The notes beneath the pieces are model-generated. The model was not told the DNA's origin, searched no databases, and saw only the letters and a list, made by a program, of their open reading frames with translations. From Eutreptiella sp. 'Long Island Sound 2002' (lineage: Eukaryota > Euglenozoa > Euglenophyceae > Eutreptiales > Eutreptiaceae): a stretch of DNA of 64,000 bases. Location: assembly GCA_964036045.1 (NCBI GenBank), contig OZ038382.1:149618961-149682960 (forward strand). Direction: 5' to 3'. How positions within the stretch are numbered: the stretch's first letter is position 1; the number at the start of each line of letters is the position of its first letter. A program made the translations under genes and the position numbers. Of the stretch, positions 11,998 to 35,423 are shown piece after piece.

Positions 11998-13932
11998 CTA
12001 ACCCGGGTGGGCACATGCACGTGCCGCCTGGATGACCTGAGGCACAATGGACTGCGGGACACAAATTTTACCAGCCCAACGAATGTGGGGATGACTCCAC
12101 TGTGGTCCCTTGGCCCAGAGGTATCCATCCATGGAAACCTGATTCTCCAGACCCCTATTCAGGAGTCGTTTGTACATTCTGTCTGCCCTGTAGTGGGGCA
12201 TCCAGTCATTGTACAGTATTTTGGTCTCAGGCGGCACTTTGACCTCAGTGAGGTTCGGAAAGACGCTAGCGGCAACCCAGGTAGGGTCTCCCTCATTGTA
12301 GCACAGTGGGGAGACATCATCCGTCTCATCCGATACATTCCAGATGGCCTCATCAGGGCCTACACTGGATTCCGCTTCAGACGAGCAGTCCTCGTCGAGG
12401 CTCATACTCACCTGACTGAAGCAAGACGGAAAGGGGCAACAGGGTTCACAGTGGTCAGACACACGCTCGACAGCATCCACTGCGGGGTGGTCCGGAAGCG
12501 AACTGCTGTCATAATGTACACTGTTATGCAACCTGTTGACCTGCAACAGCAAATAAGAGCGCTCCCGCTGTTCCTGCATGTCCTGTGGTGAGGGACGTCC
12601 CTTAGGGGCTCTCACCTCCAGAATTTTGCGGGGATGTTGGTTTGCTGCGATGAGCTGTTGCTCCTTTTCGCGCCCAGAGGCCTCCCACTGGGTCACCCCT
12701 TCCAGATCGGCGTCCGAACCGTGAAAGTTCGTGTCATCAGCCAATCCGACTGGGTAGGCCCAGCGGGACATTTCATTGGCGGCATCGTTTTCCACTCCCA
12801 GTTTGTAGACAACTACAATGTTAGACCGGGAGAGGAATTCATGCCACCGGCCGCGACGTCCCAATGGACCAGCCATGGTACACAGCTCTTCGTTATACCA
12901 TGACTCCAGGGACTTATGGTCAGTGAAAACAGTGACCTGGCGCCCTGATATCCAGCTTTTGAACTTCAAAAGACAGGACTCCAAGGCGTAAATCTCCTTT
13001 TCCCTCACTGACCATGCTCTCTGGCCCATATACCCCAGGACATTCTCGTCAGCATCGTATGTGACGCTGCCCTGTAGTTTTCGAGTGAAAAAAGCACAGG
13101 GACGCCAGTCTCGCTGGTCCTCCTTCTGTTGCAGGACAGTGCCAATGCCGAGGTCCGACGCATCCGTATGGATGCCGAACTCGCCTTGGTCACTGGGTAT
13201 ATACAGGCTGCAGGCCTCACATAGGGATGTGTTGATCTTCTTGAAGTTCCCACGCATCAGATCAGTCCAACTGAGGGTTTGCTTCTGCGCTGGAACTTTA
13301 CTGGTGCGTTCATCAGGATCGCACCTATACTTTCCGGCAAGTGAATCCATGAGCGGCGCCGCCAGTGACACGTAGTTCGGGATATAAATCCAATACCAAT
13401 TGCAGATGTCAACAAAGTTTTTCATCTGCTTTGGTGTCCGAATCATATCCTCGGAACACTCGCGCACTGCCGCAACCTTGCCAGGTGCCGGAGAGCGTTG
13501 GCCTTCTTGCAAGATGTGGCCAGCGTACTTCACCTGAGTGTCGAAAAGGAAACATTTTTCCTTTTTAACTTGCAAGTCGCACTCCTTTAATAGCTCGAAC
13601 AATTCGCGCACGAGTTTATAATGTTCCATTATGGCTTGCGAATCGAGAAGTTTCCCTTTGCCACTGCAAGTGGGTGGCGTGCCTACTAGATTGTCTTTTA
13701 TATAGGCTCTGATATGGGGTTTAAGGCGGCCAACACACCAGCTCACAAGGCGCTGAAAAGCCTGTGGCCCAACCTTAAACCCCATGGGCAGGACCTTCCA
13801 CTCAAATGTCCCTACGGGAGTGCAAAAGGCGGTTAAATGCCTGCACTCCTCCACCAGGGGCATCTGGTGGAAACCATGTTCCAGATCCAGAGGGGTCCAG
13901 AGATGGTTTCCCGCCTGCCCTTGGAGAAGGTC
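11998..13932 (-). pseudogene. Gypsy family 1 reverse transcriptase (catalytic half) and RNase H
   Basis: One frame, 621 codons from the first Met at 13863 and readable from the TAA at 13933-13935. RT motif A survives as LDLEHGFHQM. The YxDD box reads AYIKDNLVG, so its first aspartate is lost. RNase H: D in HTDASDLGIG, E in EKEIYALESC and D in VFTDHKSLE are present. It is followed by LGRRGRWHEFLSR, also found in the other element, then an acidic spacer and the integrase HxxxH start at CAHPG. The lost YxDD aspartate alone would inactivate the RT. Confidence 0.85.
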
Positions 13933-15381
13933 TTAGATCACCGGTAGTGGGAACTCATGTCCCTCGAGACACGAGTTCAGGTACCCGAAATCGATGACCA
14001 ATCTCCATTTGTTGGTTCCTGGTTTAGGAACCAGGAACCCTCCCGCGACCCAGGCACTGCCGGATCGGACAATGCATCCTTTATCAAGGAATCCTTTGAT
14101 TTTTTGGTTCATCTCCTCTTCCTTGATTCCCTCAGCCCGTATGGGGTTGCATGCTCGGGGTTGAGAGCAGGGCTTCAACTCCAATTTGCAGAAACTCACG
14201 TCCTTTGGACCCCGCTTTAAGGCATGGGCCTCGATTTTCTGCCATTCCTTCCCCGTAGGGTTGAATACCGAATCTGCGAAGTCCTCATAGATGCGGTTGT
14301 GAAGCTGGGTGGCCAACTCACCAAGGAGCTCACCATCAGCTTCAATCACTAAGCTAACACTACGTTCTCTGTCCTGAAACAAAGCGGTAGGGGGCGCCAA
14401 GTCGGATCCCATGAGCGGTATGGGCTCTCTGAGTATGGGATCCGCCTTGGTGCGCCACTGAGAAACCTTTTGACATGATCGTTTGTGCTTATCCAGCGAC
14501 GGGCCATGCTTGCTCGGCTCGGCGAAGGAGCGAGCCATCCAAGCCGGTGGGTCAGTTTTCGCCCTGAGGTCTGGTCCTGTGGGTGTACCCTTGTCGGGAA
14601 CCACACCTTGCCCATCAGTGGAGCAGACTTGGGTGAGTTTCGCTGAGGCCTCCTGAAACTGGTCCGGGGCCTTGGTCTCAGCTAGCTGCAACTCACTGAT
14701 TTTATAGCGGGCATTCATCTCAGGAGCTGGGAGCTGGACCAAGGGTTCCGGCACTAGTGGACGACTCTCCTCGGACAACCCAGGGTCTAGCGTATCCACA
14801 GGGCCCTGTTTGAGGAGTGCCACCTTGTGGCACTGGAGCCTCCACTGTTTGCGGTCCGTACCCTTGGGCCTTTTCCCAAACAGGTTAGTACTTTGCCGAG
14901 GAGAATGAATATTCTGCCCTTTGCGGGACGTCGGGGTCCCAATAACCTCGTCGAACCCTTCCTCAGAGTCCAGATTATACCTTGGACGGCGCTTCCAGTC
15001 GGTACAATTCACGCCTTCCTGTTGGTCACCCAAGTAGTCGAAGGCTATGGCCCGATACTGAGTATCAGGCTCCTGCATATGTTTTCCCCCATGGACATCC
15101 TGAAAAATTGGTTCATCCTGGAGAAGGTCCCACCAATTGACGGTAACTTCCCCTAATGAACGGAACCAAGTTTCCTTGGTTCTGACCGGGCCAATTATTA
15201 CTCCCGTCGCGCCATCCCATCGGCTTTTTTTGACTTTGCCAGCAATCTCGGACTCCTTGGAATGCACAAACAATGTGTGGTCACTCCAGGGTACAAAATA
15301 ACCCCTGGGGCGACCGTTTTGGTCACGGGTCTGCTGTCGCCTACTAGAGGTTGACAACGGATTCGGTTTGGAAGCATGGTC
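13933..15381 (-). pseudogene. Gypsy family 1 pol linker, end of the extra domain, and RT N-terminal part
   Basis: 474 codons from 15357, in the same frame as its neighbours, closed by TAA at 13933. The first 113 residues belong to the extra domain shared with the other Gypsy family (landmarks ETWFRSLGE and FDYLGDQQ). The middle is hydrophilic. The end is the RT fingers: FLVPKPGTNKWRLVIDF. The linker is much longer than in typical Gypsy pol proteins. Confidence 0.75.
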
Positions 15382-16347
15382 TCACTGAAACTTGGGCAAG
15401 GGGTTAAGGTCCGGCCGAAGCTCTTCCCCGGCCCTGTGGCAGATCACTTTATACCACTCGGGGGTTAAGATACAAGATTCCCCGGTGGATCTCACATATC
15501 TGGATCCGCCCTTGCGGTGGCAAATCCTCAGGACCTTTCCCTTAGCGCGTCGGGCTGGTTTCCTGGAAACAATTTGGGCTTGATTGCCCTGGACATCCAT
15601 ATTTTCACCATCATCAGAAACTGGTGACCGGACGAGGGTATCACCAGGTAGGTCCTTGGACTCATCCCGTGTATCCATCTCCACATCCGGGGGGTGCTCT
15701 TGAGATACATGCCGCTGGCGGCTTTGTGGGTCTGGACCCACATAATCAACCGACATCTCCATAGGGCCCTCAGAATCACACAAATAGCCGAAGTTTCCCA
15801 TAAATTCCCAGGGTGGGTCGAAACCCAACGACCCTTCGTCGCTGGATCCATCGGAACAGGGATCATTGCCATCTTCCGTCTTGGCGCCATGTTCCTCTGG
15901 ATAGTCCAGCACTGCGGCTATGTCTATGTAGTAATCCCAAGCTTTTTCTTTTCCTCCACCCGTACTTGGCTCTGGGGTCACCATGACTGCATCAGGCGTG
16001 GGATCTCTCTTGGGGTGTGGCGCACTCTGGTCCGCATCATCACTGTTTATATCCAGATCCTCACCCTGTGAATGGGATGTATTTGACACCTCATGGACAT
16101 GAAAAATGGGGCTGGATTCAGTCAACTGATCCTGACCCTGAACCTGAGTAATTTGGGATTGCAATCAGCCAACTGATTCTCATCCATCAGGTTCTGCCCT
16201 TCAGGCTCCACACCTGAGTGCTGGTCCTCAACATCTTCTGAGGGCTCATCTGGTATGTGCTCCTCGCGCGGGGCGTCATCAAACACGAGGGAACCCCGTG
16301 TGCGACTCAGTGTAAGGCCATAACGGGCAACGAAAGGGTATGCCAGA
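15382..16347 (-). pseudogene. Gypsy family 1 protease C-terminal strand and acidic linker, start of the extra domain
   Basis: The 260-codon frame from 16164 ends at TGA (15382-15384). Just upstream a different frame reads LAYPFVARYGLTLSRT at 16300-16345, which aligns with the protease ending ILGFPFLSAYRLAL of the 43-61 kb element. The segment in between is acidic (aspartate, glutamate, serine) and unrecognised. LTPEWYKV near the end begins the extra domain. The right edge is the exact insertion point of the 12.5-kb element. Confidence 0.65.
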
Positions 16348-16387
16348 CACCTATGATTTTAGCAGCTGTTTTTTCCCAAAATTCAAA
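16348..16387 (+). repeat. Left terminal inverted repeat
   Basis: 40 of 40 bases match the reverse complement of 28799-28838. It starts CACCTATG and the match stops abruptly after 40 bases. Confidence 0.9.
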
Positions 16388-16924
16388 AAGTCGACAAAAA
16401 GGGGTTTTTCGCGAGAAATGACCTATTTTTTTGGTTTCCACGGCCCCAAAATAGGGGGGGGGGTCCTCCTACCCGACTTTTGTCCAAAAATATCAAAAAC
16501 CCTAAAATTTGGCCTATTTTGGGGTATTTTTGCCTGCTCTGGGCTGGTCCTGCAGAACAGTGCTGCACACCAGTGTACCTGCCTATAGAGGATTTTCGAC
16601 AGAAATTCCAATTTTCTTTGGATTCTCTGGCCCCAAAATAGGGATGGGGGGGTTCCGAGCTTTCTCCCAAACCATCAAAAACCCTGGAATTCGGCGCATG
16701 TTGGACTATTTTTGTCTGCTATGGGGTGGTGCAGCAGAACAGTGCTGCACACCAGTGTACCTGTATAGTATAGTATAGGCACGAAAAAACCATGAAAATA
16801 GGTTTTGTACCCAAAAAGACCAAAAGTAACCTTTTGTTTTAATTATACAGCCCGCAAATAGCAGGGGGGGGGGGGGTTCCTCCTACCCCATTGTTCCCCA
16901 AAAATAACAACCTAAGCCTCAAAC
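16388..16924. repeat. Three degenerate repeats of about 190 bp
   Basis: Shared landmarks recur: CCCCAAAATAGGG plus a G run, then CAAAAACCCT, then CAGAACAGTGCTGCACACCA (16554 and 16738). They look like an older, diverged array related in layout to the satellite that follows. No gene. Confidence 0.6.
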
Positions 16925-17080
16925 ATGTGTGTGTACGGTGATAGGCACGCAAAAGCCTACCTATGAACCATATGGAAATGGACCACAAACGGTGCAAAAT
17001 AGGGCCAAAAACACCTCAAATGTTCATCGCTCATCCCATTCTTATGCACATACTATCATATTTTATGTAGTTCTTTGGCG
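16925..17080 (+). repeat. Single stray monomer of the 190-bp satellite
   Basis: From ATGTGTGTGTACGGTGATAG to TATGTAGTTCTT this matches the 190-bp units that form the array 7 kb to the right. It abuts the 187-bp array. Confidence 0.8.
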
Positions 17081-17084
17081 TATT

Positions 17085-18990
17085 TCGCTTTTTTGCAACG
17101 AGCACCCTCCAATCGGGAGGGGGGGGGGGTTCAGCTGCTTGTTTCAGGGCTAAAAAAAACAAACAATTTTTGATAAAAAAATGGCTATTTTTCGCCGATT
17201 TTGTTGAAAAATGGCAGATTTTGGGGCATAAGAGTGCTGTAAATTGTGTTTGGGCAATCGGTGTGTCCACACAGTATGCTTTTTTGCATCCAGCACCCTC
17301 AGAATGGGGGGGGGGGGGCTCTGCAACTGCCTGTCTGAGGCCAAAATACTCAATTTTTGACCAAGAAACGGCCATTTTTGGCAGTTTTTCCATGAAAAAT
17401 AGCAAATTTTGGTGCATACAGATGCTGTAGATTGTGCTTTCGTAGTCCGTGTGTGCATACAACTTGCTTTTTTGGATCCAGCATCCTCAAAATTGGGGGG
17501 GGATCCTTCAACTGCTTGTACGAAGCCAAAAAAAATCGATATGTGACCAGAAAAGGGCCATTTGTGGCCGTTTTTTTCGTGAAAAACGGCAAATTTTGGT
17601 GCGTAAGGATGCTGTAAATTGTGTTTGCGTGATCTGTGTGTCCCTACAATCTGCTTTTTCGTATCCAGCACCCTCAAAATAGGGGGGCAGTCTTCAACCG
17701 CTTGTCTGAGGCCAAAAAAAATCATTTTTTGACCAAAAAATGGCCATTTTTAGCCATTTTTTCCATGAGAAATGGCAAATTGTGGTGCATACGGATGCTA
17801 CAAAATGTGTTGTCATGATGTTTGTGTGACCACAACTTGCTTTTTTGCATCCAGCACCCTCAAATTGGGGGGGGGGGGTCCTTCAACTGCTTGTACAAAG
17901 CCAAAAAATCAATATTTGACAAAAAAAACGGCCATTTTTGGCCGGTTTTCATGAAAAATGGCATATTTTGGTGCGTACGGATGCTGTAAATTGTGTTTGC
18001 GTGATCTGTGTGTCCCTACAATCTGCTTTTTCGCATCCAGCGCCCTCAAAATAGGGGAGAGCCCAAAAATCCCACCTTTTGACCAAAAAATGGCCATTGT
18101 TGGCCGTTTTTTCATGAAAAATGGCTAATTTTGGTGCATACGGATGCTGTAAATTGTGTTTGCGTGACCTGTGTGTGACTACAACTTGCTTTTTCACATC
18201 CAGCACCCTCAAAATAGGGGGGGGGTCTTCAACCGCTTGTCTGAGGCCAAAAAAAAATCATTTTTTGACCAAGAAATGGCCATTTTTGGCCGTTTTTTCC
18301 ATGAGAAACGGCAAATTGTGGTGCATACGGATGCTACAAAATGTGTTTTCGTGATCTTTGTGTGACCACAACTTGCTTTTTTGCATCCAGCACCCTCAAA
18401 ATAGGGGGGGGGGGGTCCTTCAACTGCTTGTACAAAGCCAAAAAATCAATATTTGACAAAAAAAGCGCCATTTTTGGCCGGTTTTCATGAAAAATGGCAT
18501 ATTTTGGTGCGTACGGATGCTGTAAATTGTGTTTGCGTGATCTGTGTGTCCCTACAATCTGCTTTTTCGCATCCAGCGCCCTCAAAATAGGGGAGAGCCC
18601 AAAAATCCCAACTTTTGACCAAAAAATGGCCATTGTTGGCCGTTTTTTTCATGAAAAATGGCTAATTTTGGTGCATACGGATGCTGTAAATTGTGTTTGC
18701 GTGACCTGTGTGTGACTACAACTTGCTTTTTCACATCCAGCACCCTCAAAATAGGGGGGGGGGGGGTCTTCAACTGCTTGTCTGAGGCCAACAAACTCAA
18801 TTTTTGACCGAAAAACGGCCATTTTTGGCCGTTTTTTCATGGAAAAACGGCAGATTTTGGTGCATACGGATGTTGCAAATTGTGTGAGTCACGATCTGTG
18901 TGTCCCTACAATCTCTTTTTTCGCATCCAGCACCCTCAAAATAGGGGAGGGGGGTCCCTGACCTGTTGTTCAGGGGGCAAAGGCAACATT
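17085..18990 (+). repeat. 187-bp satellite array, about 10 units, with a 3-unit higher-order repeat
   Basis: The landmark CATCCAGC(A/G)CCCTC recurs at about 17288, 17474, 17660, 17848, 18035, 18198, 18386, 18569, 18736 and 18925. Most spacings are 184-189; two are about 165 because of a short deletion. From 17660 the pattern repeats every three units (about 538 bp). Each unit has a G run of 7-12 and a CTTTTT..GCATCCAGC block. The short reading frames here are by-products. Confidence 0.92.
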
Positions 18991-19549
18991 TTGGTACAGC
19001 CTGAAATATGGGGGGGGGGGGGCTTGGGATAATCTTTTTTTCAAACGCAACAAATGATGCCCAAGACGTCTTCCTTGTGGAGAAGGGGACCACCTTGAGA
19101 AATACAGAACCTGCATCCATCCCTGTGTGCACCATGGTCCGCACATGTTGACTGATCATTTGAGGACATTTGGAAAGAGCAACAACTTGAGCATGAAATT
19201 CTGGGCCAATCTGTGCACTGAGCAGTGCCTGCACTGAGTAATGCATTTGCCCCATGGGGTCCCTCCCTCCTCCAAGGAGCACAGCATTCCTGCACCCAAG
19301 GCCAATACTCATACTGCATTGGACTGTATGCACTGGCTAGCAGAGGTTTGCTCGACGGCTTGCCAAACAAGATGATCTGAAACACCAGAATTAAATTAAA
19401 GACCACGGTCTCCATGCTCCCCAATAGGAGTGGGATTTGTTTTCAGATCCAGGAGGCCTCCATGGAGTAGGCCAGAACGGATGCCCCATAGAGAATGTTC
19501 CCAGGTATGGCCAACAAAAATCAGTAAATACAGAGGTCCTGCCAAAAGA
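18991..19549. other. Interval without recognised gene
   Basis: Unique-looking sequence between the satellite and the 22-bp minisatellite. Frames on the - strand up to 178 codons exist but show no family resemblance. Confidence 0.4.
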
Positions 19550-19925
19550 CAGTGCAGTGTGCACAGTGCATGCGTACGGTGTGCACAGTGCGCATGTTCA
19601 CAGTGCGTGTGTGAAGTGTGCGGAATGCGTGCATGCGCACAGTGCAAATGTTCACAGTGTGTGCGTGCAGTGTGCACAATGCGGGCGACGATGAGTGCGT
19701 GCAGTGTGTACAATGCGTGCGTGCAGCGTGCACAGTGCGTGCGTGCAGCGTGCACAGTGCATGCGTGCAGTTTGCACAATGCGTGCGTGCCGTGTGCACA
19801 GTGCGTGCGTGCAGTGTGCACAGTGCGTGCGTCCAGTTTGCACAATGCGGGCGTGCAGCGTGCACAGTGCGTGCGTGCAGTTTGCACAATGCGGGCGTGC
19901 AGCGTGCACAGTGCGTGCGTGCACA
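19550..19925 (+). repeat. 22-bp minisatellite, main array of about 17 units
   Basis: The unit is about GTGCGTGCGTGCAGYGTGCACA, with frequent single-base variants. 22 is not a multiple of three, so the unit cycles through all frames and keeps several open on both strands; the Cys-, Val- and Ala-rich frames are artefacts. Shorter runs of the same unit lie at 20567-20680, 21850-21905, 22120-22175 and 22325-22400. Confidence 0.9.
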
Positions 19926-19975
19926 CTACAAACATTTTCATCAAGCCCCCATCCCCCATTTGGTTGCGTTAACGC

Positions 19976-20569
19976 CACCCTGCAATCGACGCTGCCGTAA
20001 CCATTTGCCCAAATATCAAAAAAGCTGTCATAATGGTTGCCATGATAGCAACCACTGCCGCCATCGCTTTTCCTAGGGATGAAAAGTTGGAATGTGTTGT
20101 GAGAGGCGTTGAGGGACTCACTTACCGCCATGCCAGCGACCGCGCATCACAGGGGGTAGGTACCGAGGGTGGCAGAAACTGGATTCCTGCTTGCACAAAA
20201 CAAAATTCAAAAAACAGTGAGACCCACAGACTGATCACTGTATTCTGTCATGTGTTGCGGCCATGCAACTTTTTCGCATGAAATGCAATCCCTGCATGCG
20301 GTGGCATTACGTATTCCTACTGCCTTGATAACCAATGCGCAATGCAACAACGTACCGCTTCAATGATCGTAACCACAACATTTCCAATCCACTCAATGAG
20401 CCCAAGCTTTTCGAGACGTGCATGAGATGTGCATGAGCACAAAGAGTGCTGCAAAGAACAAGAGGGTGCCCCACTCAAGGTGCTCCAGCAGGGGCTCCCT
20501 CTCTGTGTCTGCCAGCAGCACCAGTGTCATGAATCCAAGGATTGCAATCCAGAGAGCGTCAAATGCAGC
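19976..20569 (-). pseudogene. Transporter gene fragment, copy 1 (two exon-like pieces)
   Basis: The first piece, 20569-20356, reads [19 protein letters not shown] and then [15 protein letters not shown], the pattern of ion transporters of the P-protein/ArsB/NhaD superfamily. A 10-base insertion relative to copy 2 shifts the frame after FVLMH. The second piece, 20072-19976, follows an AG acceptor and codes a hydrophobic helix (AAVVAIMATIMTAFLIFG). The fragment ends directly in the 22-bp minisatellite on both sides. Family call is good for piece 1, tentative for piece 2. Confidence 0.6.
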
Positions 20570-20729
20570 GTGCACAATGCGGGCGTGCAGCGTGCACAAT
20601 GCGTGCGTGCAGTGTGCACAGTGCGTGCGTGCAGTTTGCACAATGCGGGCGTGCAGCGTGCACAATGCGTGCGTGCACACTACAAACATTTTCATCAAGC
20701 CCCCATCCCCCATTTGGTTGCGTTAAGGC

Positions 20730-21313
20730 CACCCTGCAATCGACGCTGCCGTAACCATTTGCCCAAATATCAAAAAAGCTGTCATAATGGTTGCCATGAT
20801 AGCAACCACTGCCGCCATCGCTTTTCCTGGGGATGAAAAGTTGGAATGTGTTGTGAGAGGCGGTGAGGGATTCACTTACCGCCATGCCAGCGACCGCGCA
20901 TCACAGGGGGTAGGTACCGAGGGTGGCAGAAACTGGATTCCTGCTTGCACAAAACAAAATTCAAAAAACAGTGAGACCCACAGACTGATCACTGTATTCT
21001 GTCATGTGTTGCGGCCATGCAACTTTTTCGCATGAAATGCAATCCCTGCATGCGGTGGCATTACGTATTCCTACTGCCTTGATAACCAATGCGCAATGCA
21101 ACAACGTACCGCTTCAATGATCGTAACCACAACATTTCCAATCCACTCAATGAGCCCAAGCTTTTCGAGACCGTGCATGAGCACAAAGAGTGCTGCAAAG
21201 AACAAGAGGGTGCCCCACTCAACGTGCTCCAGCAGGGGCTCCCTCTCTGTGTCTGCCAGCAGCACCAGTGTCATGAATCCAAGGATTGCAATCCAGAGAG
21301 CGTCAAATGCAGC
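20730..21313 (-). pseudogene. Transporter gene fragment, copy 2 (two exon-like pieces)
   Basis: Piece 1 (21313-21110) continues beyond copy 1: [20 protein letters not shown], then WIGNVVVTIIEA, then a GTACGT donor. Piece 2 (20826-20730) starts after a CAG acceptor. Copies 1 and 2 are direct repeats offset by 754 bp and nearly identical outside the 10-base indel. The intact relatives are multi-pass membrane transporters; only one to two helices' worth is present here, so this is a captured, non-functional fragment. Confidence 0.62.
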
Positions 21314-22440
21314 TTCAGCACATTCTTGATGTTACTGATTCCCATGAAACAGTACCCTTGTAGCCAGGTCCCAAAATAATGCGGTACATGCACATGTTGT
21401 ATCTTGGACACGCGGCACCTTGAACAGGAGGGGGAGGAACGCCGCCAAGGCCTCTTGCATCCTCAATACCAAGGCGTCATCCGGCCTCAACGCCTCAACG
21501 GCGGCATATGAACCGACGGCAACATGTATCGGCGACTGGCCCTGTGTGATGCACAGAAGGGGATGCAAAGCTCATCAGCGTGTCTGTCACAATGCCGCCT
21601 TTCGCAATGAACAGACTTCAACTTTCCTTTTGCGCCAGCGCTCATTCGGGCAGGAGTGCTCACAGTGGGTCAGTTTTTGGAGGATGACTTGAACGAGTGT
21701 CTTCGCCCCCATGTGGCACCCTATTTATCGCAAAGCGATCGCAGAATTTGCTGCATCTGCAGTCCGGAACGCGCCGTTCCAGCATGCCTTGCATCGAGTC
21801 CACCCCACAAAAAAAAATGGGTTAAGAGGCGATGGCCAAGAGAATAAGATGCGCGCAGTGTGCACAATGCGTGCGTGCAGTGTGCACCGTGCGTGCGTGC
21901 ATACTTCGTGTACTCGAGGAAAGTTTTGGCTTCCTTAACCCATCCCTAAAACCCTTTCCCATCTCTCTCCATTTCAAGGTCGTGCAGGGCCACTTGGCTG
22001 GCGTCGTTCATGGCATCATTTCGGAATGCTTGGATACACACCCGCCCTGTGCCCCGAAGCCCCCCCAACATCACAAAGCATGCACAGGGCACGCACAACG
22101 CATGCATGCCCCACCTCTGCCGCGTGCGTGCAGCGTGCACAATGTGTGCGTGCAGTGTGCACAGTGCAAAACGCAATGCCAAAGGCACGAGCAAAAGCTC
22201 CACAGTGTCAAAAAGACATAATCTGAGTCGGGAACGGACAAACAGCGAAGGTGTTCTGTCACCCAGACCCAGAGATTTTCGCTGAAACTCTTAGCAGACA
22301 GAAGGCACTAATATTGTGACACACTGATATTGTGCATGCGTACGTGCATGCAGTGTGCACAATGCGTGCGCGCAGTGTGCACAGTTGGTGCGTGCGTGCA
22401 ACATGGGATGTGCACGGGGCACACAGTGCATACCATCAAG
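21314..22440. other. Mixed interval: possible further exon fragment and short 22-bp minisatellite runs
   Basis: On the - strand, 21568-21332 reads GQSPIHVAVGSYAAVEAL after a CACACAG acceptor-like sequence, faintly like one ankyrin unit. I do not call it a gene. Minisatellite runs occur at 21850-21905, 22120-22175 and 22325-22400. Confidence 0.4.
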
Positions 22441-22577
22441 AGCCGAGGCGTGATACGTTGCTACTTCTTGTTTTCTCTTGATGCGTTGGCCGCAAGCTCC
22501 AACATCTCATTGCTCAGGAACTCCAACACAGCAGCCACATGCACAGTTGCTCCCTTGCCAACACTGGAAGAGTACCG
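22441..22577 (-). pseudogene. Histone H2A fragment
   Basis: The frame reads [33 protein letters not shown], then TAG, then QRITPRL. This matches the conserved H2A core (AAVLEYL, EILELAGNA, RITPRHL), from the alpha-2 helix to the start of the C-terminal region. It is about 45 residues against about 130 in a full H2A, has an internal stop, and runs straight into the 22-bp minisatellite. It is a captured fragment, not a working histone gene. Confidence 0.8.
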
Positions 22578-23631
22578 CCAATTTGCGGGATAGACAACAT
22601 TGCTTTGAGAAGAGAAGTGGAGCATCATGCATCATGCATCATGGATTGCAACCGCAGCAGAATTATCAACCACCACAACGGCAAGCCAAACCACCACTTG
22701 AATGGAGAGATGGGACAGGCGGGCAAAAAATGACCGACACAACTGTGATATTTCCTCTGCGATATTTCAACTATGATATTTCAAGCACGGACCCACAAGC
22801 TCCCTAACGGTTGCTTCTATCCTCCACCACTGGGTCGAATTTAAGCATTCCCATACAATTCACCCAACATACCATCAATATGCAAATGCAAATGTGTGTG
22901 CATGCATGGAGTTATCTTGTTGGGTTCCACAAATCACTCAGGTTGGTAATCACGACGAAATCACAACGAAATCACTCTAATCCACATTTGTGGCTTCAAA
23001 AGTGCAAATATGGCTATTCAGGGGCACTTTTTGCACCCTCCGGAAGATTATCTTGAGTAAAAGGCATGTAGGGTCACAATTTGTTGCTTGGCAAGCCTAA
23101 CCGAGCTCTAGGGAAAAATTTCATCAATGCCAAATCACACGAAAGCACAGCGACAGCAATGAAATCAACCATTGTGGGTTCAAAAGTGCAAATACAGCTG
23201 TTTGGGAGATTGTTGCCACCAAGTGTTTCTAGGACATTGCCTAAGCCGGCTCTTTGGGTTGCCATGCAACGCGCGTTGCAATGCACATTGGTACATTCCA
23301 CTGAGTGCGTGTGGTGTGTGTTGTGTGTGTGATATTTCATCTGCCCATAACGAGACACATGACATGGGCAACCATCCAATTTGAAACCGGATGAAATTTC
23401 CCCCATACCTCGTTAGGTCACAAACATGATATGAGTGCGATGTGGGCAATGAAGCAATGGCAGCGCAAACACAAAGCCAGGCAATGTTCTCAAACTGCCT
23501 CATCTACGTCAGCATAGGAGCCATTGCTTAGCCCTGTGGGTTGTACCAAAGGGAAATCACATTTGGTTGCCATGCATGCTCGCAATTCACTATTCCCTCA
23601 CTGTCTTTTGACCATTCGTTCACCCTTAGTT
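22578..23631. other. Interval without recognised gene; two diverged direct repeats
   Basis: TCAAAAGTGCAAATA followed by a similar flank occurs near 22997 and 23180, suggesting an old duplication. Nothing else supported. Confidence 0.4.
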
Positions 23632-23945
23632 CACTGTCTTTTCACCCTTTGCTCACCCTACCTAGGAAGGCGTAATACACAGGACAAGCCTCCTCTTGGC
23701 ACAAAAAGCACGCAACAAGGGCATGAAGGCAGTGAGACAATCTTTGTATATTAGAATATGTGGTGTGGAGCAATGTCATGTTCGATCACCGTCTTTTCAC
23801 CCTTCGCTCACCCTACCTCGGAAGGCGTAATACACAGGAAATACCTCCTCTTGGCACACAAAGCACGCAACAATGGCATGAAGGCAGTGAGACAATCTTT
23901 GTATATGATTATATGTGGTGTGGAACAACGTCAGGTATGACAAGA
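23632..23945 (+). repeat. 157-bp tandem duplication
   Basis: Two copies, starting CTTTTCACCCTT near 23636 and 23793, each containing GAAGGCGTAATACACAGGA and CAGTGAGACAATCTTTGTAT. Confidence 0.85.
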
Positions 23946-25690
23946 AATTTGCAATACTTGTCCACCGTGGATATGGACCACAAAAGGTGCAAAAATGGGC
24001 CGAAAACACCTCAAATCTACATTGTTCAACCCACTCCTGTGCACATAGTATCATATTTCATTTATTACCTAGCATTCAAATACTTATAATACCATCTTAT
24101 GCCCCAAACATGTGTGTGGACGGTGATAGGTGATCAAAACCCTACCTATGAACCATATGGATATGGAGCACAAATGGTGCAAAAACGAGCCAAAAACACC
24201 TCAAAACTACATTGTTCATCCCATGCTTGTGCCCGTAGTATCATATTTTATTTCTTACCCAGCATTCAAATGCTTACAATACCATCCTATGCCCCAAACA
24301 TGTGTGTGGACGGTGATAGGTGATCAAAACCCTACCTATGAACCATATGGATATGGAGCGCAAAAGGTGCAAAAACGGGCCAAAAACACCTCAAATCTAC
24401 ATCGTTCATCACATTCTTATGCCCGTAGTATCATAGTTTATGTAGTTCTTATCATTCAAATGCATACAATACCAACCCAAGCCCCAAACATGTGTGTGGA
24501 CGGTGATAGGTGATCAAAACCCTACCTATGAACCATATGGATATGGAGCACAAATGGTGCAAAAACGGGCCAAAAACACCTCAAAACTACATTGTTCATC
24601 CCATGCTTGTGCCCGTAGTATCATATTTTATTTCTTACCCAGCATTCAAATGCTTACAATACCATCCTATGCCCCAAACATGTGTGTGGACGGTGATAGG
24701 TGATCAAAACCCTACCTATGAACCATATGGATATGGAGCGCAAAAGGTGCAAAAACGGGCCAAAAACACCTCAAATCTACATCGTTCATCCCATTCTTAT
24801 GCCCGTAGTATCATAGTTCATGTAGTTCTTATCATTCAAATGCATACAATACCAACCCAAGCCCCAAACATGTGTGTGGACGGTGATAGGTGATCAAAAC
24901 CCTACCTATGAACCATATGGATATTGGACCACAAACGGTGCAAAATAGGGCCAAAAACACCTCAAAACTACATTGTTCATCCCATTCTTATGCACATACT
25001 ATCATATTATATGTAGCACCTATCATACAAATGCTTACAATAACAACCTAAGCCCCAAACATGTGTGTGTACGGTGATAGGCACGCAAAAACCCACCTAT
25101 GAACCATATGGAAATGGACTACAAAACGGTGCAAAATAGGGCCAAAAACACCTCAAATGTTCATCGTTCATCCCATTCTTATGCACATACTATCATATTT
25201 TATGTAGTTATTATCATTCAAATGCATACAATACCAACCCAAGCCCCAAACATGTGTGTGGACGGTGATAGGTGATCAAAACCCTACCTATGAACCATAT
25301 GGATATTGGACCACAAACGGTGCAAAATAGGGCCAAAAACACCTCAAATGTTCATCGTTCATCCCATTCTTATGCACATACTATCATATTATATGTAGCA
25401 CCTATCATACGAATGCTTACAATAACAACCTAAGCCCCAAACATGTGTGTGTACGGTGATAGGCACGCAAAAGCCTACCTATGAACCATATGGAAATGGA
25501 CCACAAAACGGTGCAAAATAGGGCCAAAAACACCTCAAATGTTCATTGTTCATCCCATTCTTATGCACATAGTATCATATTTTATGTAGTTCTTATCATT
25601 CAAATGCATACAATACCAACCCAAGCCCCAAACATGTGTGTGGACGGTGATAGGTGATCAAAACCCTACCTATGAACCATATGGATATTG
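23946..25690 (+). repeat. 190-bp satellite array, about 9 units
   Basis: GCCCCAAACATGTGTGTG recurs every 190-191 bp (about 24101, 24291, 24481, 24671, 24861, 25051, 25242, 25433, 25625). Two subtypes differ at TGGACGGTGATAGGTGATCA versus TGTACGGTGATAGGCACGCA. Units 24112-24491 and 24492-24871 form near-identical 380-bp dimers. Both satellites in this insertion have nucleosome-sized periods. Confidence 0.93.
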
Positions 25691-26466
25691 GGCCCCATGG
25701 TGCATGAGAAAGGGATGAATAGCCTAGAATAAAGGCAAAACATCGCTTGTCATGTAGGCTTCTACCAATGGTGATGACAATTTGTTCATATATCACCTCT
25801 ATACCACCTCTTCCAGCCCTGTAAGGCCCTCTACATGGCCTCCATAGACCCTAAAACCATGAAAAAGAGTGGTTTTTGGCTAGAAAACACTATAGCACCA
25901 GCTGGACATAAAGTCGATTCGGGTTCTTGCACGATCTGTGCATATATCTATATAGAGAATTTTAATGCGGATCGATTCATGCTAAATTTCTAGCACTTTC
26001 GTGGCCGTTTTGATGGATTTCGTAATTTACAGGGTTGTCGAAGCTCGAATTTTTTGTGTCGATTGTATCAATTAGATGACTGTTAGTTGTTTGCGAGCGT
26101 TTCTGGCACCATTTGTCGTGTTTCGCAATGAATGACTGTATCGCAGAGCTTGTTTTCATGTGTCGCCTTTGGTTGTGCTTGGCACTTGGTTTCGTAGCTT
26201 TTCTGGCTGTGGCGCACTTCACCAATATGTCCGAAGGTATGGCCTGTGCTTACCATATGTTCAAATCTAGCAAGGTCAAGTTGCGATTTCAAGGGTAATT
26301 TGTGATTTTGGCATGAATGATGACATTATGGTCCTGGTTTGTGAGGGTTGTCTTTGTTGTTCAATTTGAATCACGAACAGCTTTGTGAGATGCTTCCTTG
26401 TGCATTTCCGATTTCGTCATTGCCACAATTTAGAGTTCCAATTTGTTGTGTCCTTTTTGTTTGCAG
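25691..26466. other. Upstream region of transposase-like gene; possible intron
   Basis: No protein recognised. It ends with a pyrimidine-rich stretch and TTTGCAG (26460-26466), a plausible splice acceptor for the next feature. Confidence 0.45.
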
Positions 26467-27975
26467 GTGGTGACAAGCCAACCTTCAAGACCACCGCAGG
26501 TTGGTGTGTGGCTCACCGCAAAGGGTTTGCTTGGAAGGAGTGCCGTGAGTTGACTCCTAGGGAAAGGAACATTGATTTTGCGGATGGTGTTGCCATGGCC
26601 ACAGCCAAGAAAATTACCAAGTTGCTTGTAATTTGTAGGCAATGTGATTTGAACTTGCCACAAAGGGTGCCTACCACTCCTGAGGGTAAGAACTCCGAGG
26701 TTTGGGACACCCAATTGTCCTCCAAGCGCCCTTTGGAGCCTTCCCCTTCCCCAAATGAGCCCTCTCAAAAGAAAATTGCCACACCTTCTTCTGATTCTTC
26801 TTTTTCCACCCCTCACAAGGCCATCGCCCCCAAGGCATTACTTTTTGCCACACCCTCTTCCAACTCCAAATCTAAGGAACCACCGATGGCACGAGAGTTA
26901 AAGGCCTTGCTATCTCAACTTGAAGAGTGGCAAATGGCCCGGCCGGAGGCCGATTTGTTAGAGGATTTGGAAGAGGCTAAAGAGGCGGATTGCCACGGCC
27001 GAAGGGTATGGGTGGCTCCCCACTCGTGGAGAAGGCCGCAAGCAACGGGAGAGACGTGCTTTGTGGAGAGATGTGGCAACCCAAAATGAGTTGCCGGAGA
27101 AGGAGGAAGAGGTGCGTAGGTTGAAAAATGCCGATGGCATTGCCAATGAGGCCCTGGAAACCGCAAAGCGTGAGTTGCATGAGGCCGAGGTGAGCTATAG
27201 TAAGGCAGACGGAATCCATGTGCAAGCATACAAGGCTGCGTTGGCCCATTTTGGCATCTCAAAAACTGCCTATTTTGGGCATGCCTACATAGGCAAATAT
27301 TGCAAGCTCCTTTGCACACAACGCATAGCCGTAGCCATTAGTGAGCCTTGCTTGCGGCGGTGGTCGGAACAACGGAGAAGAGTTGTCGCTCTCCGTGGAC
27401 GAATTAGTTTTCTAAATAACCAAATCCGCAAGGCCAAAAGGCAAGGGCGGTGGGATGATGTTGCGGATCTTGAGTTCCGGTTGCATGACAAGAGATTTGC
27501 ATATGCATTGGTTGGGTCTAACCTTAAGCGCGATGTGGAGTACCAAGCTGCCTTGCGAGTTCGGCAGAGATGGTTGCACCGATTCACAAAGTGGGCGGCT
27601 CTGCAACGCCTGATGGGGGGTAGCATTGATTACACGGCTAACCCTCACCTCATTGAAATGCTCATTGTTCGCGCCGCCAGCTTCTCGGGTTTCTTTGCAT
27701 GCAACTTCCCGAACGAGAAGCCTACCCCTAAGCTTTACCTTGCCCTAACCCATGGGATCCAATTCAACATGCTCCACAAATTTTGCGGGTATGCTGATGA
27801 AGAACCCATGGAATCCCAACACGCTGACCATAACCGCATCCGTGTACGGTCGAGGCATTGCGTAAATCAACAAGTTGCTATGCTTCATGGTGTAAACACT
27901 TTGTTGGTGCGCAACAATGTCAATTGTTGCATTACTGCTGGCAAGCTCCGGGACGAGCGCAACGAGCTTGGGTGA
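26467..27975 (+). pseudogene. Transposase-like protein (frameshifted), candidate mover of the 12.5-kb insertion
   Basis: Frame 0 (26467 to about 26985) begins KPTFKTTAGWCVAHRKGFAW and continues into a Ser/Pro/Lys-rich stretch. One frameshift near 26980 leads to frame 1, which runs to 27975. That part has a coiled-coil region, then FGISKTAYFGHAYIGKYC, and ends with TPKLYLALTHGIQFNMLHKF, then EEPMESQHADHN. The order Y-x-G-x-x-x-G then PKL-x-x-L then E-x-x-x-E-S-x-H-x-x-x-N resembles the C-terminal halves of transposon proteins I know from cnidarian genomes, whose last glutamate would complete a DDE triad. Earlier aspartates are not assigned. Family identity is inference. Confidence 0.5.
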
Positions 27976-28128
27976 GGTGGAATGAGCCTAACCCTGAACT
28001 GGAGCCAATGTGGTGTTGCGGAGGGCCCAACCCTAGCCCTAAATGATGGTTTCCTACTCTTTTCTTTGGTACAAGGGAGAACTCTATGCTAATGGTGGGC
28101 CCTTTGGGAGTAAAAGCAAATTTAGCAG

Positions 28129-28154
28129 ACCCTAACCCTAACCCTAACCCTAAT
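28129..28154 (+). repeat. Interstitial telomere-like repeat (CCCTAA)n
   Basis: Four tandem CCCTAA units. Degenerate copies (CCTAACCCTGAA, CCCTAGCCCTAAA) lie at 27980-28045. Confidence 0.85.
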
Positions 28155-28798
28155 GACACATGTGTGGGGGGCAAATCGGACTACCGATGTGATTGCAATG
28201 GTTGAAAGACATTGGATGATCATTTATGTGCACTAAATCGAAGAAATCGACATTACATTGTGTCCTACATTGTTGCATGATGTGAGCATTTGTCATTTCA
28301 GAGGGATTTGGACAGAGCAGGGTGCTGGGATTGCCATCCGTCACGATTTTGCCCGAAAAACCACCCCTAACACTAGGCAATTGTGAAGAGATCGCATTTT
28401 TGTCATCCCGTAGGGTCCCTTGGGCCATCCGCATCATCTCTTCACACTTAGACTTTTTGTCCGGGATTCCTTGATTTGGTGGGGTAGTGAAAAGTGTGCA
28501 TTTCTCAAAATCTGTGCCTGCCAATCTGGATTTTTTTAGGTCAGCAGCAAGGTATTGATCTCGGGGACACGCTCATGCCTTTACTTTGCTTCCAACTGCG
28601 AAAAAAAGTGGACTTTTTGGCGATTTTCTATTGCGCACGGCGGTCGGGAATCTGAAACTCGCGTACGCGGCAGTTGTTGACAGTTGATATGCGGCTCCAG
28701 CTTCAGCGACCGCATAATTTTGTTAAAATTTTGAGAAAACACAAAAACAACAGTACTACTGTGTACACTTTGGTATCGCCGTTCTGAAAATGCATGAC
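28155..28798. other. Right subterminal part of the 12.5-kb insertion, no gene
   Basis: AT-rich sequence between the telomere-like repeat and the right TIR. No frame resembles a protein. Confidence 0.4.
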
Positions 28799-28838
28799 TT
28801 TGAATTTTGGGAAAAAACAGCTGCTAAAATCATAGGTG
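28799..28838 (-). repeat. Right terminal inverted repeat
   Basis: Exact reverse complement of 16348-16387 (40 of 40). The next base, 28839, is back in the Gypsy protease. Confidence 0.9.
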
Positions 28839-29301
28839 AATAACTCTGGGCCCAACGGAGGCAAAACGGACAGTGACTTGTACACACTTCACTGTCACAT
28901 ACCTCCCATCGTGCCAAACCGGCTATGACACGCTGCATATCACTACTTGGCTCCCGCCAGCCAATCTGTTCTTGCCGGCGCCAACCAAGCTGATGGGAAA
29001 CTCAGCTTTTGGTATAGTGAATTAGATCAAAACTTTCCCACCCCGCAACGGCCAATACCTTGCATCCCAAATCTATGAGGTTTGCGATATCCCGGAGGAC
29101 ATTTTCAGGTGTATTATCTATAGTATATGCACCTGAAAGTATTAGTCCTTTCCGCGGCCTTTTGGGATTGCTCGGTCGGGGCTCCCTGAGCCGGGTCGGC
29201 TCACCATCGGTGAGTTGCACTGTAAAAAGACGAGCTCGTTTCAGCCCCAACACCAAGTCCACTTTCAAAAGTGGCTTCTTAACATGCGACCCTGGCGTCA
29301 C
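28839..29301 (-). pseudogene. Gypsy family 1 protease, N-terminal part
   Basis: 99 codons from 29301. The segment NLIDLGCKVLAV matches the retropepsin active site (usually D-T-G), with the threonine replaced by leucine. The stop at 29002 and a frame change near 28900 precede the last bases SVLPPLGPELF, which join LAYPF on the far side of the 12.5-kb insertion. Retropepsins cut Gag-Pol into mature proteins; this one is broken. Confidence 0.65.
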
Positions 29302-29322
29302 TTTACCAGACCGCTGACGCCC

Positions 29323-29823
29323 CTAGGACTTGGTCCCTTTTGCCGCTCTCTTCGCTTCAAATTCAGCCTTAAGGTGGGGTTCCTTCTTCCAGCACTGATC
29401 CACCAGGTGGCCTGTCCTTTTGCAATGGGAGCATTCTTTGGGCGAACCTGTGCCCTTGGGCGTAGGGTTTCCTGGTCCTGTTCGCGACTTGGGCTTGCCG
29501 GGTTTGAAAATCAACGGCTTTCGGAGGTGTGGGTGTTTCTTCCAACACCTATCCTCCGTATGCCCCGGAAAACCACAAAAAGGACATTTAGGCCCTATGG
29601 CATTCACATACCATTCATCCCACTCGTTAGGTGGTTCAAAAACCTGGGCATCATTTGCGTTAGGCGGAGCCTCCGACTCCCCAATTGCATTCACCTGTTC
29701 CTCCACGGGCTCGGCAGCCATGAAATTCAAAGATGCCCAATTGGGGCGCTTATCCAAGGGCAACGATCGCCATTTGTGGTGATCCTGATGACACTTGACA
29801 GCGTCTGTCTGTCTGAGTTCCAC
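29323..29823 (-). pseudogene. Gypsy family 1 Gag nucleocapsid: two CCHC zinc knuckles
   Basis: CPFCGFPGHTEDRC and CSHCKRTGHLVDQC both fit C-x2-C-x4-H-x4-C. Each is followed by WKK(H/E)PHL, so the two may be a duplicated module. Zinc knuckles bind the element's RNA. The stretch between is Lys- and Pro-rich. The frame is shared with the protease segment downstream. Confidence 0.9.
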
Positions 29824-30689
29824 GTGGCAGAAAAGCTACAAGGTGAGGTAGGTGAATTCAAGTCCTCCCGACTTGTTCTCGTCATTAGAAATTTTATAAA
29901 TGAGGACATCATGGTGGACCAACGCGTGCAAGAACCTTTGTCGGGCATGACCAAATGTAACCCCCTCTCATACTTGACTGCCCCAATAAATGAAATCCTC
30001 CATGAAGTGGGAGAGCTCACCTACCAAACAGTTCTTAGGAACGGTTAGCCCATGGAAAACATGGTCGGGGACATTTCTGTTCACCCGGCGGTTGGCTTAC
30101 CGCAAAACACCCTCCTTCACTTGGGCATAACTCAGGTTCCTACGGATCACCCTCTTGTCGAGCGGGTCCACATCGTCTTTCGGGATTGCTCCCAAAAGCG
30201 TTGGGATAAGCATTCCGTTGCCGAGCGCCACCCCCACGTCTCGCTGCCACCTGGCATAGGACAGAACCCAGTTTTACGCCTTCACCCCGTCGCAGTCCGA
30301 GGTGGGAACGACGTCCCGGACTTGTACATCCTTCAGAGCACGGGGGTCCAGTAGGGGCGTGGCCATGGTGTTATACACCCCCGGACCATACCACGGGATT
30401 CCACCTCCACCGGGATACACATCCGTGGGAGTGGGGTTTAGTGGTGGCCCTGAGGGCGTGGGCGCCTCTGAAAACGCAAAGCCTCTCAAGGGACCCATAA
30501 TGCGTTTGATCTTGGGCAGTTTTTCGCCCTGGGGGAAATGATCCATTGTCTGAGTTTCAAACCTACCCTCGTCATCAAAAAACCTGAGATCACTTCCGCA
30601 ACAATGCCTGAAATCGGCATTGGGGTCTCGGTTTCCCCTCGGTGAATGCCATCATGAGTTGGGACCCGATGGTCTGGGACTCCATCGTA
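29824..30689 (-). pseudogene. Gypsy family 1 Gag capsid-like region, broken
   Basis: Readable segments include WVLSYARWQRDVGVALGNGM and PLDKRVIRRNLSYAQVKEGV, separated by stop codons. Position between coiled coil and zinc knuckles fits a capsid domain, but I cannot assign it by motif. Confidence 0.45.
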
Positions 30690-32305
30690 TCAAGGCGTCT
30701 CATAATGGAAAGCATCAGGCCGGTCCGGTTGTGGATACATGAACGGGTTGCTTGGCCCTGCCTCAGACACCCGTGAGGGTTCGGAGAAATACCCTCCGAA
30801 AGGTCCTCGCGGGCCCGGTTCCGCTCCGTCAGGGTAATAACTTCGGTCCATGGGGTTAACTCCCTTGGGCCTGAGGTGTTCCTCCTGCGGTTGGGCCTTC
30901 AGGGCGTCCATATTGTGCCTGAGTGTCCTTATTTGCCCCTCGGAATAAAACTTGACCTGCCCTAGCTCCCATGCAAGATGAGCTACAGCATTTGGGTCAA
31001 AGCCTTCGGGCGGCCCTGGGGCTGGGGATGTCTTCGGGCCTTCAGTTTTGCTCGTGAGGTCCTCCAACGCTTGTACCCGCGCTTCTATCTGGCCAACTTG
31101 GTCTGGACCCTTCAGTCCTCTGGGGTCTTCTTCAGTTTTCAGGATCCTCAGTCCTAGTTGGAGGACCTGGTCTTGAGTTTTTTCTGCGGACTTCTTCCAG
31201 GCGCCGCTGCGTGTTGGTGGTGGCCCCCTTGTACTGAGCATGTTCCTGCTCAAGTCTGGCCAGGGACTCCAACAACACATTGACCTGGCTGGGATGAGCA
31301 TTCCCCGCTGTTTCGTTGGTGGCACCCAAGGCCTCTATTCGACTCAACCGAGTCTCTATGGCCTTGATTCCCTCCATCTGCAGCTGGAGTTGTTCTGCTT
31401 GTGCCACTACGGTTGCGGCGGTTTGGTCCATCTTGCTGCTGATCACTTTCAGCTGATCAGACGCCGCTCTGACCGCTTCGTCGGCTTGGTCCGCCTTTGG
31501 CGTTCATCGACTGCCCTCAGGCCTAAACTTCTCCTAGGCTCTGTAGATGATCACCTTGCACCTGGGAAAGGCCGGCGATCTCCTGCTTCAGGGCGGCCAG
31601 ACCGGACTTCAGGACCTCCAGTTGATTCTCCATAACGTCGATCCGGTTGTCCAGCCCAGCGCGTCCGGGGGCTTGAGCTCCAGATAGTGTCTCCACCTGA
31701 CGCATTACCTTCTCCATCTGGTCCTTCAGTTCAGCAACTCGGAGATGAAATGGATGTCCTTCCGACCAATGCAAATCCAAAGATTGCATGGTGGTTTGCC
31801 GCATCCCATCCGTCAGCTGGCGTAGCTGATGGATGGCCATGATGGTCTCGTTGGTGATCTCCTCCATGGTGGTCCGATACCCGGCGAAGGTCTCCGTCAG
31901 GTCCCGTAGTTGGGCCATTGCCAGGGAGGCGTCCATTTGGAAGTCCACAACCCGTACGCGGCGCACTCAGCTGCCATCAATTGCCGTCCACTCGAGGGCA
32001 TCCATCATTCGGCTTCGGTTGGGGTCCTCCTGGGTCCAGGTTGCCCTGCCGAAGCCATTTGCCATCCGCGGCTCGTTCGCCGGGTACTGTTGCGTAGTCA
32101 GGGGCCTATACATGGGCCCTACCAACGCACCGGCAGTCTGCGGGTTGCTGTAGGTCAACCTCAGCATCGGGCTGGGCATATGCTCGTTGGAAGATGAGTC
32201 CGACGGATGCCCACCCATGGGAACGACGCGTGTCCTCAGTGGTGTCGGTCCCATCTCGCCAGTGACGTTCAGTTCCTCAAGTGTGGGCTGGTCGGGGTCG
32301 TCCAT
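30690..32305 (-). pseudogene. Gypsy family 1 Gag N-terminal part: coiled coil
   Basis: Starts with MDDPDQPTLEEL at 32305. A stop at 31967 is followed in frame by 147 codons of heptad-rich sequence (for example LKDQMEKVMRQVETLSG). Two further frames (31446 and 31325) continue the coiled coil and then a Pro/Gly-rich region. The start is chosen because the frame upstream holds no similar sequence. The coiled coil parallels the long coiled-coil ORFs of the 43-61 kb element. Confidence 0.6.
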
Positions 32306-35150: not shown

Positions 35151-35423
35151 CCTGTTTGCTATGCCCGAGGTAAAGGTTGAGGGGGAAATATATGATTGTA
35201 TTATCTCCGCCGGGGCCCGGCATAGCGGGTATATTGTGGCCGTTCCGGGTCAGATATCCAAGAAGAAGGACAAGAAGGACAAGCATGTAGTGGGTCTCCA
35301 TGCCAAGACCGTCACCCGAGCCATGACTAGGCATTGGCTGACAATTTTCCACGTGCCCACTGTGATTGGTAGCGACCGGGGGGGTCACTTTATGGGCTCC
35401 TAGCTCAAGAGCATGTGCAAGCC
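35151..35423 (+). pseudogene. Gypsy integrase core fragment (another element)
   Basis: Reads MPEVKVEGEIYDCIISAG, then YIVAVPGQISKKK, then VVGLHAKTVTRAMTRHW, and IGSDRGGHFMGS: the middle of a retroviral integrase core with the second catalytic aspartate (SDRG). A TAG at 35401 stands where a tryptophan or similar is usual; LKSMCK still follows. It is cut off by the LTR at 35150 on the left and by family X at 35424 on the right. Confidence 0.8.

Follow-up and report, generated by a model that had tools for sequence, protein, structure and literature searches.

Satellite arrays inside a probable non-autonomous DNA transposon with 40-bp terminal inverted repeats and a one-base target duplication in Eutreptiella

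The window analysed here is a stretch of 64,000 nucleotides from the euglenophyte Eutreptiella sp. 'Long Island Sound 2002' (assembly GCA_964036045.1, contig OZ038382.1, positions 149,618,961 to 149,682,960 of the forward strand). Within it, a Gypsy retrotransposon is interrupted by a segment of 12.5 kb that is bounded by terminal inverted repeats (TIRs) of 40 bp and holds two satellite arrays, minisatellites, transporter exons and a transposase-like gene (Table 1). The two arms are complementary at 40/40 positions, as the initial annotation had stated, and form the only inverted pair of at least 25 bp reported by a scan of 14–31 kb of the window with a 14-base seed; the termini read CACCTATG. 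While the span between the TIRs stands as first described, it is not one unit: a host element of 9.89 kb, similar to other copies in the genome, contains a nested transposon of 2.6 kb. The host element is very probably a non-autonomous DNA transposon of the cut-and-paste type, ~9.9 kb long, which has perfect 40-bp TIRs and is moved in trans.

The possibility that the TIR occurs only here did not materialise. In the genome surveyed (2.28 Gb in 2205 contigs, including chromosome-size pieces), the 40-mer has 703 exact matches, divided between the strands as 353 and 350, against 0 for the reversed control. Pairing was surveyed on contig 1 and part of contig 2 (100 places listed of the 703) and in nine further pairs. 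Among these 100 places, 23 neighbouring pairs lie less than 30 kb apart, 21 facing inward and two outward; the inward pairs, which the initial annotation had proposed to seek at distances of 1–20 kb, span 0.9–24.9 kb, with seven of the 21 measuring 9.6–10.4 kb. Independent searches using the left 153 and the right 149 bases as separate queries (best 40 of 1046 and best 40 of 826 candidates scored) yielded the nine further pairs of 1.4–18 kb, the window included, on other contigs. At C3:96764771 and C3:96772234, two TIR ends of the same orientation stand 7.5 kb apart and diverge from the family directly inside the TIR.

Three copies, L081 (9923 bp), L082 (9803 bp) and L083 (9699 bp), represent the element without the nested transposon, and L081 covers the other two over their full length. 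In the unique core (20700–23960 of the window copy), they are 99.3, 99.8 and 99.3% identical to the window, respectively; the 9.9-kb family has therefore been amplified recently. Short copies of 0.9–1.4 kb (L016, L056, L057 and L080), checked along their length, are internal deletions of the same element; a separate family had been considered for L056 and L080 and was dropped, as the comparison shows the element in opposite orientation. Longer copies, as read over the right 8.5 kb each of L084 and L085 (16–18 kb) and the first 10 kb of L115 (12.7 kb), combine the element with foreign insertions in these stretches. One of these insertions carries a piggyBac-like frame, recognised by eye.

That the Gypsy element was truly split follows from its uninterrupted relatives. 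When the 200 bases adjoining the element on its left were used as query, 40 matches were scored, including the window itself, and in all 11 other copies fetched the two flanks are contiguous across the insertion point and overlap by exactly one base; one A has therefore been duplicated. The boundaries thus coincide with the Gypsy break, as initially proposed, and the empty sites asked for at that stage exist. The accompanying statement that there is no target duplication has to be given up, also in view of the genomic copies: the bases that flank the element on either side are identical in 25 of the 30 paired copies (the 21 neighbouring inward pairs and the nine from the end searches), as against 22.9% in all mispaired combinations of flanks (binomial p 3.9e-12), and in 25/28 when two pairs longer than 20 kb are left out. 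An abutting direct repeat of 1–4 bp accompanies 29/30 paired copies and 29% of mispaired ones. The empty sites and the hundreds of equal ends also speak against the junctions at 16348 and 28838 being assembly joins, and an artefact of assembly was rejected on account of the empty sites and the 703 TIRs.

The insertion sites share a sequence preference. From 51 right and 33 left flanks, after removal of one duplicate, we obtained 83 distinct half-sites, read from the TIR outward, and compared them with a base composition assumed to be 24% A, 24% T, 26% C and 26% G. The base at +1 is unconstrained, +3 is G or T in 73/83 half-sites (chi-square p 1.5e-10), +4 is G in 52/83 (p 4.1e-13) and +5 is G in 39/83 (p 9.9e-5). 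With both sides combined, the target approximates the palindrome CCM N [N] N KGG (CCMNNNKGG), which has the duplicated base at its centre. The traits seen here characterise a DNA transposon that moves by way of its TIRs: sharply defined ends, duplication of a base, palindromic target sites, empty sites, flanks that vary from copy to copy, and deletion derivatives with both ends retained. Unlinked inward TIR pairs, together with the target duplication and the empty site, are what is found in non-autonomous TIR transposons. By contrast, Polintons/Mavericks duplicate 6 bp, and the element has neither the CACTA termini nor the 2–4-bp duplication of CACTA/En-Spm transposons.

Table 1. Features of the element, its nested insertion and its Gypsy host, in window positions.
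Feature	Position	Strand	Evidence
Gypsy downstream part; reverse transcriptase and RNase H at 11998–13932	11998–16347	-	Pfam PF00078, PF17917, PF17919
Left copy of 1-bp target duplication (A)	16347	.	flank matches overlap by one base in 11/11 other Gypsy copies fetched
Left 40-bp TIR	16348–16387	+	repeat scan; 703 exact genome matches; 39/40 scored end matches begin at base 16348
Subterminal direct repeats, ~185-bp spacing, common to other copies	16400–16763	+	repeat families D11, D12; copy comparison
Lone outlying unit of 190-bp satellite	16903–17075	+	repeat family D4
186-bp satellite array, ~10 units	17154–18984	+	repeat scans; 35-mer with 311 exact genome matches
22-bp minisatellite arrays and tandem duplication (spacing 744–754 bp)	19548–21313	+	repeat scans
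CitMHS-like transporter exons, two copies	20378–21289	-	PF03600, E 4.1e-15, two stretches; repeat family D10
155-bp unit, two copies	23626–23935	+	repeat scans
190-bp satellite array, ~9 units	23968–25688	+	repeat scans; 35-mer with 2124 exact genome matches
Left 4-bp target duplication (AAAA) of nested transposon	25884–25887	.	sequence unbroken in 6/6 other copies examined
Nested Chapaev-type transposon, CACTATAG...GGTGGGGTAGTG, without ~1.1 kb relative to L091	25888–28489	+	copy comparison; PF06918 in paralogue
Broken transposase gene of nested transposon, two overlapping open frames	26370–27975	+	ORF (open reading frame), relative and copy comparisons
Right 4-bp target duplication of nested transposon	28490–28493	.	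copy comparison
Right 40-bp TIR	28799–28838	-	repeat scan, right-end search, genome matches
Right copy of 1-bp target duplication (A)	28839	.	Gypsy empty-site comparison
Gypsy upstream part (gag-like; zinc-knuckle motifs read by eye)	28839–31400	-	first 662 bases aligned to uninterrupted copies

The body of the element consists largely of repeats, and the two satellite arrays and the duplicated transporter exons listed by the initial annotation are all present. Its best CitMHS-like stretch lies at 21122–21289 on the minus strand, and the second would fall at about 20378–20545, as placed from the 744-bp repeat spacing. Copy L081 shares the 186-bp array, the minisatellites, the duplicated stretch with the transporter exons and the 190-bp array. 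A histone H2A piece, also claimed at first, was rejected, with no histone domain matched by Pfam at E<=1 in the frames scanned; in 23900–28838, these were two minus-strand frames taken whole and two plus-strand ORFs. Scans of the window with Rfam and for tRNA genes gave no matches.

Pack-type non-autonomous elements likewise carry, between their TIRs, exons that look cellular in origin. In the present element, the body is mostly tandem repeats, and the parent gene was not located. As for the repeats, the closest likeness is to Tetris, a foldback DNA transposon of Drosophila virilis, which according to the passages on it in PMC4079207 is likewise apparently non-autonomous, bounded by TIRs and equipped with ~220-bp tandem repeats that also occur as longer satellite-like arrays, somewhat like the 186-bp satellite. 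In Tetris, however, the repeats are described as lying within the TIRs, whereas the TIRs of the present element, from another host, measure 40 bp and its arrays are internal, the 186-bp array starting ~0.8 kb inside. The comparison with Tetris extends to the TIRs and the repeats; the one-base duplication and the transporter exons are noted for the present element.

Both satellites extend beyond the copy in the window, and we mapped their clusters relative to exact TIRs, counting a distance of up to 15 kb as close (a copy whose TIR is mutated would be scored as distant) and using random draws as a control. For the 190-bp unit, the 100 matches listed of the 35-mer's 2124 form 27 clusters on contig 1, 18 of which are close to a TIR (random mean 0.45, maximum 4 in 2000 draws). 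For the 186-bp unit, the 46 contig-1 matches among those listed likewise form 27 clusters, again with 18 close to a TIR (random mean 0.28, maximum 3). The multi-hit 186-bp clusters behave differently: five of six (10, 4, 3, 3 and 2 hits) are 0.1–3.4 Mb from any exact TIR and have a spacing of mostly ~534 bp, and the sixth (3 hits) is 1.3 kb from one. The 186-bp satellite therefore also stands as arrays of its own. At C1:117785092-117791527, for instance, an array of the 186-bp type with ~534-bp higher-order spacing lies more than 1 Mb from any exact TIR. On the initial question whether they occur mainly between such TIRs, both satellites are thus only partly confined to TIR-bounded copies. The earlier description of a mobile element with satellites and host-like exons is well borne out by the hundreds of TIR ends, their inward pairing, the empty sites and the interior content common to the copies.

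The transposase-like gene reported by the initial annotation does lie between the 40-bp TIRs, yet it belongs to the nested transposon and not to the host element. The sequence GGCTAGAAAAGTGTG is unbroken in all six other copies examined (L016 and L081–L085) and is split in the window by 25888–28489, a segment of ~2.6 kb with CACTA...TAGTG ends and AAAA on both sides. Elsewhere in the genome, the nested transposon has 12-bp TIRs and ends in CACTACCCCACC...GGTGGGGTAGTG, flanked by a TTGA duplication in L091 and by no clear one in L087; a 4-bp duplication, as is typical of Chapaev, is hence found in two of the three copies checked. The window gene is broken and lacks ~1.1 kb relative to L091. Four copies of the telomere-like repeat ACCCTA stand at 28129–28153, 3′ of the gene and within the nested transposon. 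The L091 copy itself adjoins a reverse-transcriptase frame, DIRS-like by eye, with a repeated palindrome, AGTATACGGCCGTATACT (L091:7796-8749).

The nested gene family has 145 genome matches (112 of 400 candidates scored). It includes a 906-aa open frame in L091, and a more distant relative has 988-aa frames at four loci (C10:65648179, C10:23565358, C5:111096710 and C2:79654717). One of the 988-aa frames, L090, is 32% identical to that of L091 across the main aligned part and matches PF06918/DUF1280 (E 8.6e-15), a domain that PMC3985635 assigns to Chapaev transposons and groups with RAG1. Neither the 906-aa frame nor the window ORFs match PF06918 in Pfam; a database protein (P0009) that shares the C-terminus of the window gene does bear it, and a relative in Eutreptiella gymnastica (P0008) is 40% identical over 93% of the query. 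The 988-aa relatives are possibly a still intact Chapaev-type family, for which no convincing pair of TIRs was found around L090. The L090 frame had no match among PDB sequences at E<=1, and 26300–28300 had none in a phage collection. The CACTA...TAGTG ends, the 4-bp duplication and PF06918 thus tie only the nested transposon to Chapaev of the CMC group as portrayed in PMC3985635; the 9.9-kb element has other termini, a one-base duplication and no such gene that we could find.

Several observations weigh against a non-autonomous transposon with a one-base duplication. The matching base is absent in five of the 30 pairs: three shorter than 20 kb, with AT at C1:60187107 (in a tandem-repeat target), TTG at C1:72201963 and AGC on C26, and two longer, with CT at C1:145420911 (24.9 kb) and no repeat at C2:13875170 (23 kb). 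From +10 to +13, half-sites show a weaker, unexplained deficit of A and surplus of C (p between 0.00025 and 0.013). Finally, a transposase that uses the 40-bp TIRs was not found. The longest stop-to-stop frame in the whole copies L081–L083 is 210 aa, and neither the frames listed there nor the Pfam scan of the window frames revealed a transposase of the element's own, with the proviso that an intron-split gene could escape; a match to PF01610 (DDE_Tnp_ISL3) at 22587–22808 on the plus strand is at chance level (E 0.14, 12.4 bits versus a cut-off of 23). Eleven ends with a different interior (L104–L114), several of them old or deleted copies and some perhaps chance matches, contained no transposase recognised by eye or sequence comparison.

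It is rather doubtful, if conceivable, that the element is a non-autonomous member of the PHIS group (Harbinger, ISL2EU, Spy, Nuwa and Pangu), that is, Harbinger-, ISL2EU- or Spy-like. Duplications in this group range from 0 to 4 bp, with 'no TSDs or 1 bp to 4 bp TSDs' stated in a 2023 paper (PMC10045372), and short palindromic targets are preferred in several of its branches, including Spy, ISL2EU and NuwaII (PMC4482050). The targets named in the passages on these branches (AAATTT, A|AT|T, TWA, ANT, CWG and C|TNA|G) are nonetheless unlike CCMNNNKGG, a palindrome with CC/GG as its outer bases, and no PHIS transposase is linked to the 40-bp TIRs, but no search for PHIS was made. A literature search with the exact phrasings tried for a 1-bp duplication returned no paper, though PMC10045372 mentions 1 bp for PHIS in the part cited, and a one-base duplication is accordingly better called rare than unheard of among eukaryotic cut-and-paste transposons.

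We consider it unlikely that a Chapaev-type (CMC) transposase of the same genome moves the element in trans with an altered stagger. The genome does contain relatives of the nested gene whose open frames are long, including the four 988-aa loci, one of which matches DUF1280, and the termini of both the element and the Chapaev-type copies start with CAC. Apart from these three bases, the TIRs of the two families differ, and the nested family duplicates 4 bp in two of three copies checked, in keeping with the 2–4 bp given for CMC in the relevant passages of PMC4482050. Far less probable still is a single autonomous transposon of 12.5 kb with the gene at 26370–27975 as its own transposase. The gene does lie between the 40-bp TIRs and belongs to a multi-copy transposase family, and both types of TIR start with CAC. 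It is rejected as the transposase of the 9.9-kb element, however, since it sits in a segment with its own CACTA...TAGTG ends and AAAA duplication, the other six copies are intact at that point without it, the nested transposon occurs elsewhere with its own 12-bp TIRs (L091 and L087), and no start of the 40-bp TIR turned up in L086, L087, L088 or L091. Least probable of all is that the satellites came first and the TIRs are part of them, spread by recombination or segmental duplication: in its favour are the nine of 27 sampled clusters of each satellite that have no exact TIR within 15 kb, the five of six multi-hit 186-bp clusters that lie away from one, and two right ends on C22 (L018 and L019) that share 20 flanking bases and suggest that some copies may have spread by duplication, but flanks otherwise differ among copies, each end is defined to the base, insertion duplicates one base, and there are empty sites.

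A few further features of the window merit mention. The initial annotation had placed ~83 residues between the active site and the YPF motif of the split Gypsy protease; this spacing was not confirmed, the pattern D-S/T-G-A/S/C being found in none of the six frames of 28839–33900. A 65-bp tandem array of 18 units occupies 37929–39096, and 2.3 kb away the unit recurs in a smaller array (35421–35633). A second long Gypsy-like element lies on the minus strand at 45148–54267, with a 1620-aa frame containing reverse transcriptase and RNase H, another frame with below-cut-off matches to an integrase core and a chromodomain, and zinc knuckles. On the plus strand at 268–4921, a 2OG-Fe(II) oxygenase-like frame overlaps the start of a LINE-like frame with endonuclease and reverse transcriptase.

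Taking the 9.9-kb element as a non-autonomous DNA transposon, the following course of events may be envisaged. As no transposase was recognised in three whole copies, the element would be moved in trans by a transposase encoded elsewhere, probably by cut-and-paste rather than copying. It inserted into the Gypsy element at a palindromic target, CCM N [N] N KGG, with duplication of one base, which would imply strand cuts staggered by one nucleotide. Its transporter exons were presumably captured from a host gene. Since satellite arrays, minisatellites and exons are carried in the body, each jump would spread them along with the element. In the window copy, a Chapaev-type transposon has inserted, presumably later, raising the length to 12.5 kb, and has decayed.

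The length of a target duplication mirrors the distance between the two strand-transfer sites, and one base is its short extreme, which would require transposase and target to be arranged in an unusual way. With its hundreds of TIR ends, part of which come from recent copies, the family lends itself to a test of this. We also tentatively entertain the possibility that the family stands for a group of eukaryotic cut-and-paste transposons not described before, whose defining trait would be a 1-bp duplication at a 9-bp palindromic target (CCMNNNKGG) and whose transposase would be new or much altered; the family would at the same time be a main vehicle seeding two satellite families across the 2.28-Gb genome. 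Independent of that, the element clearly illustrates the dispersal of satellite DNA within a transposon, and the 186-bp satellite forms arrays away from it as well.

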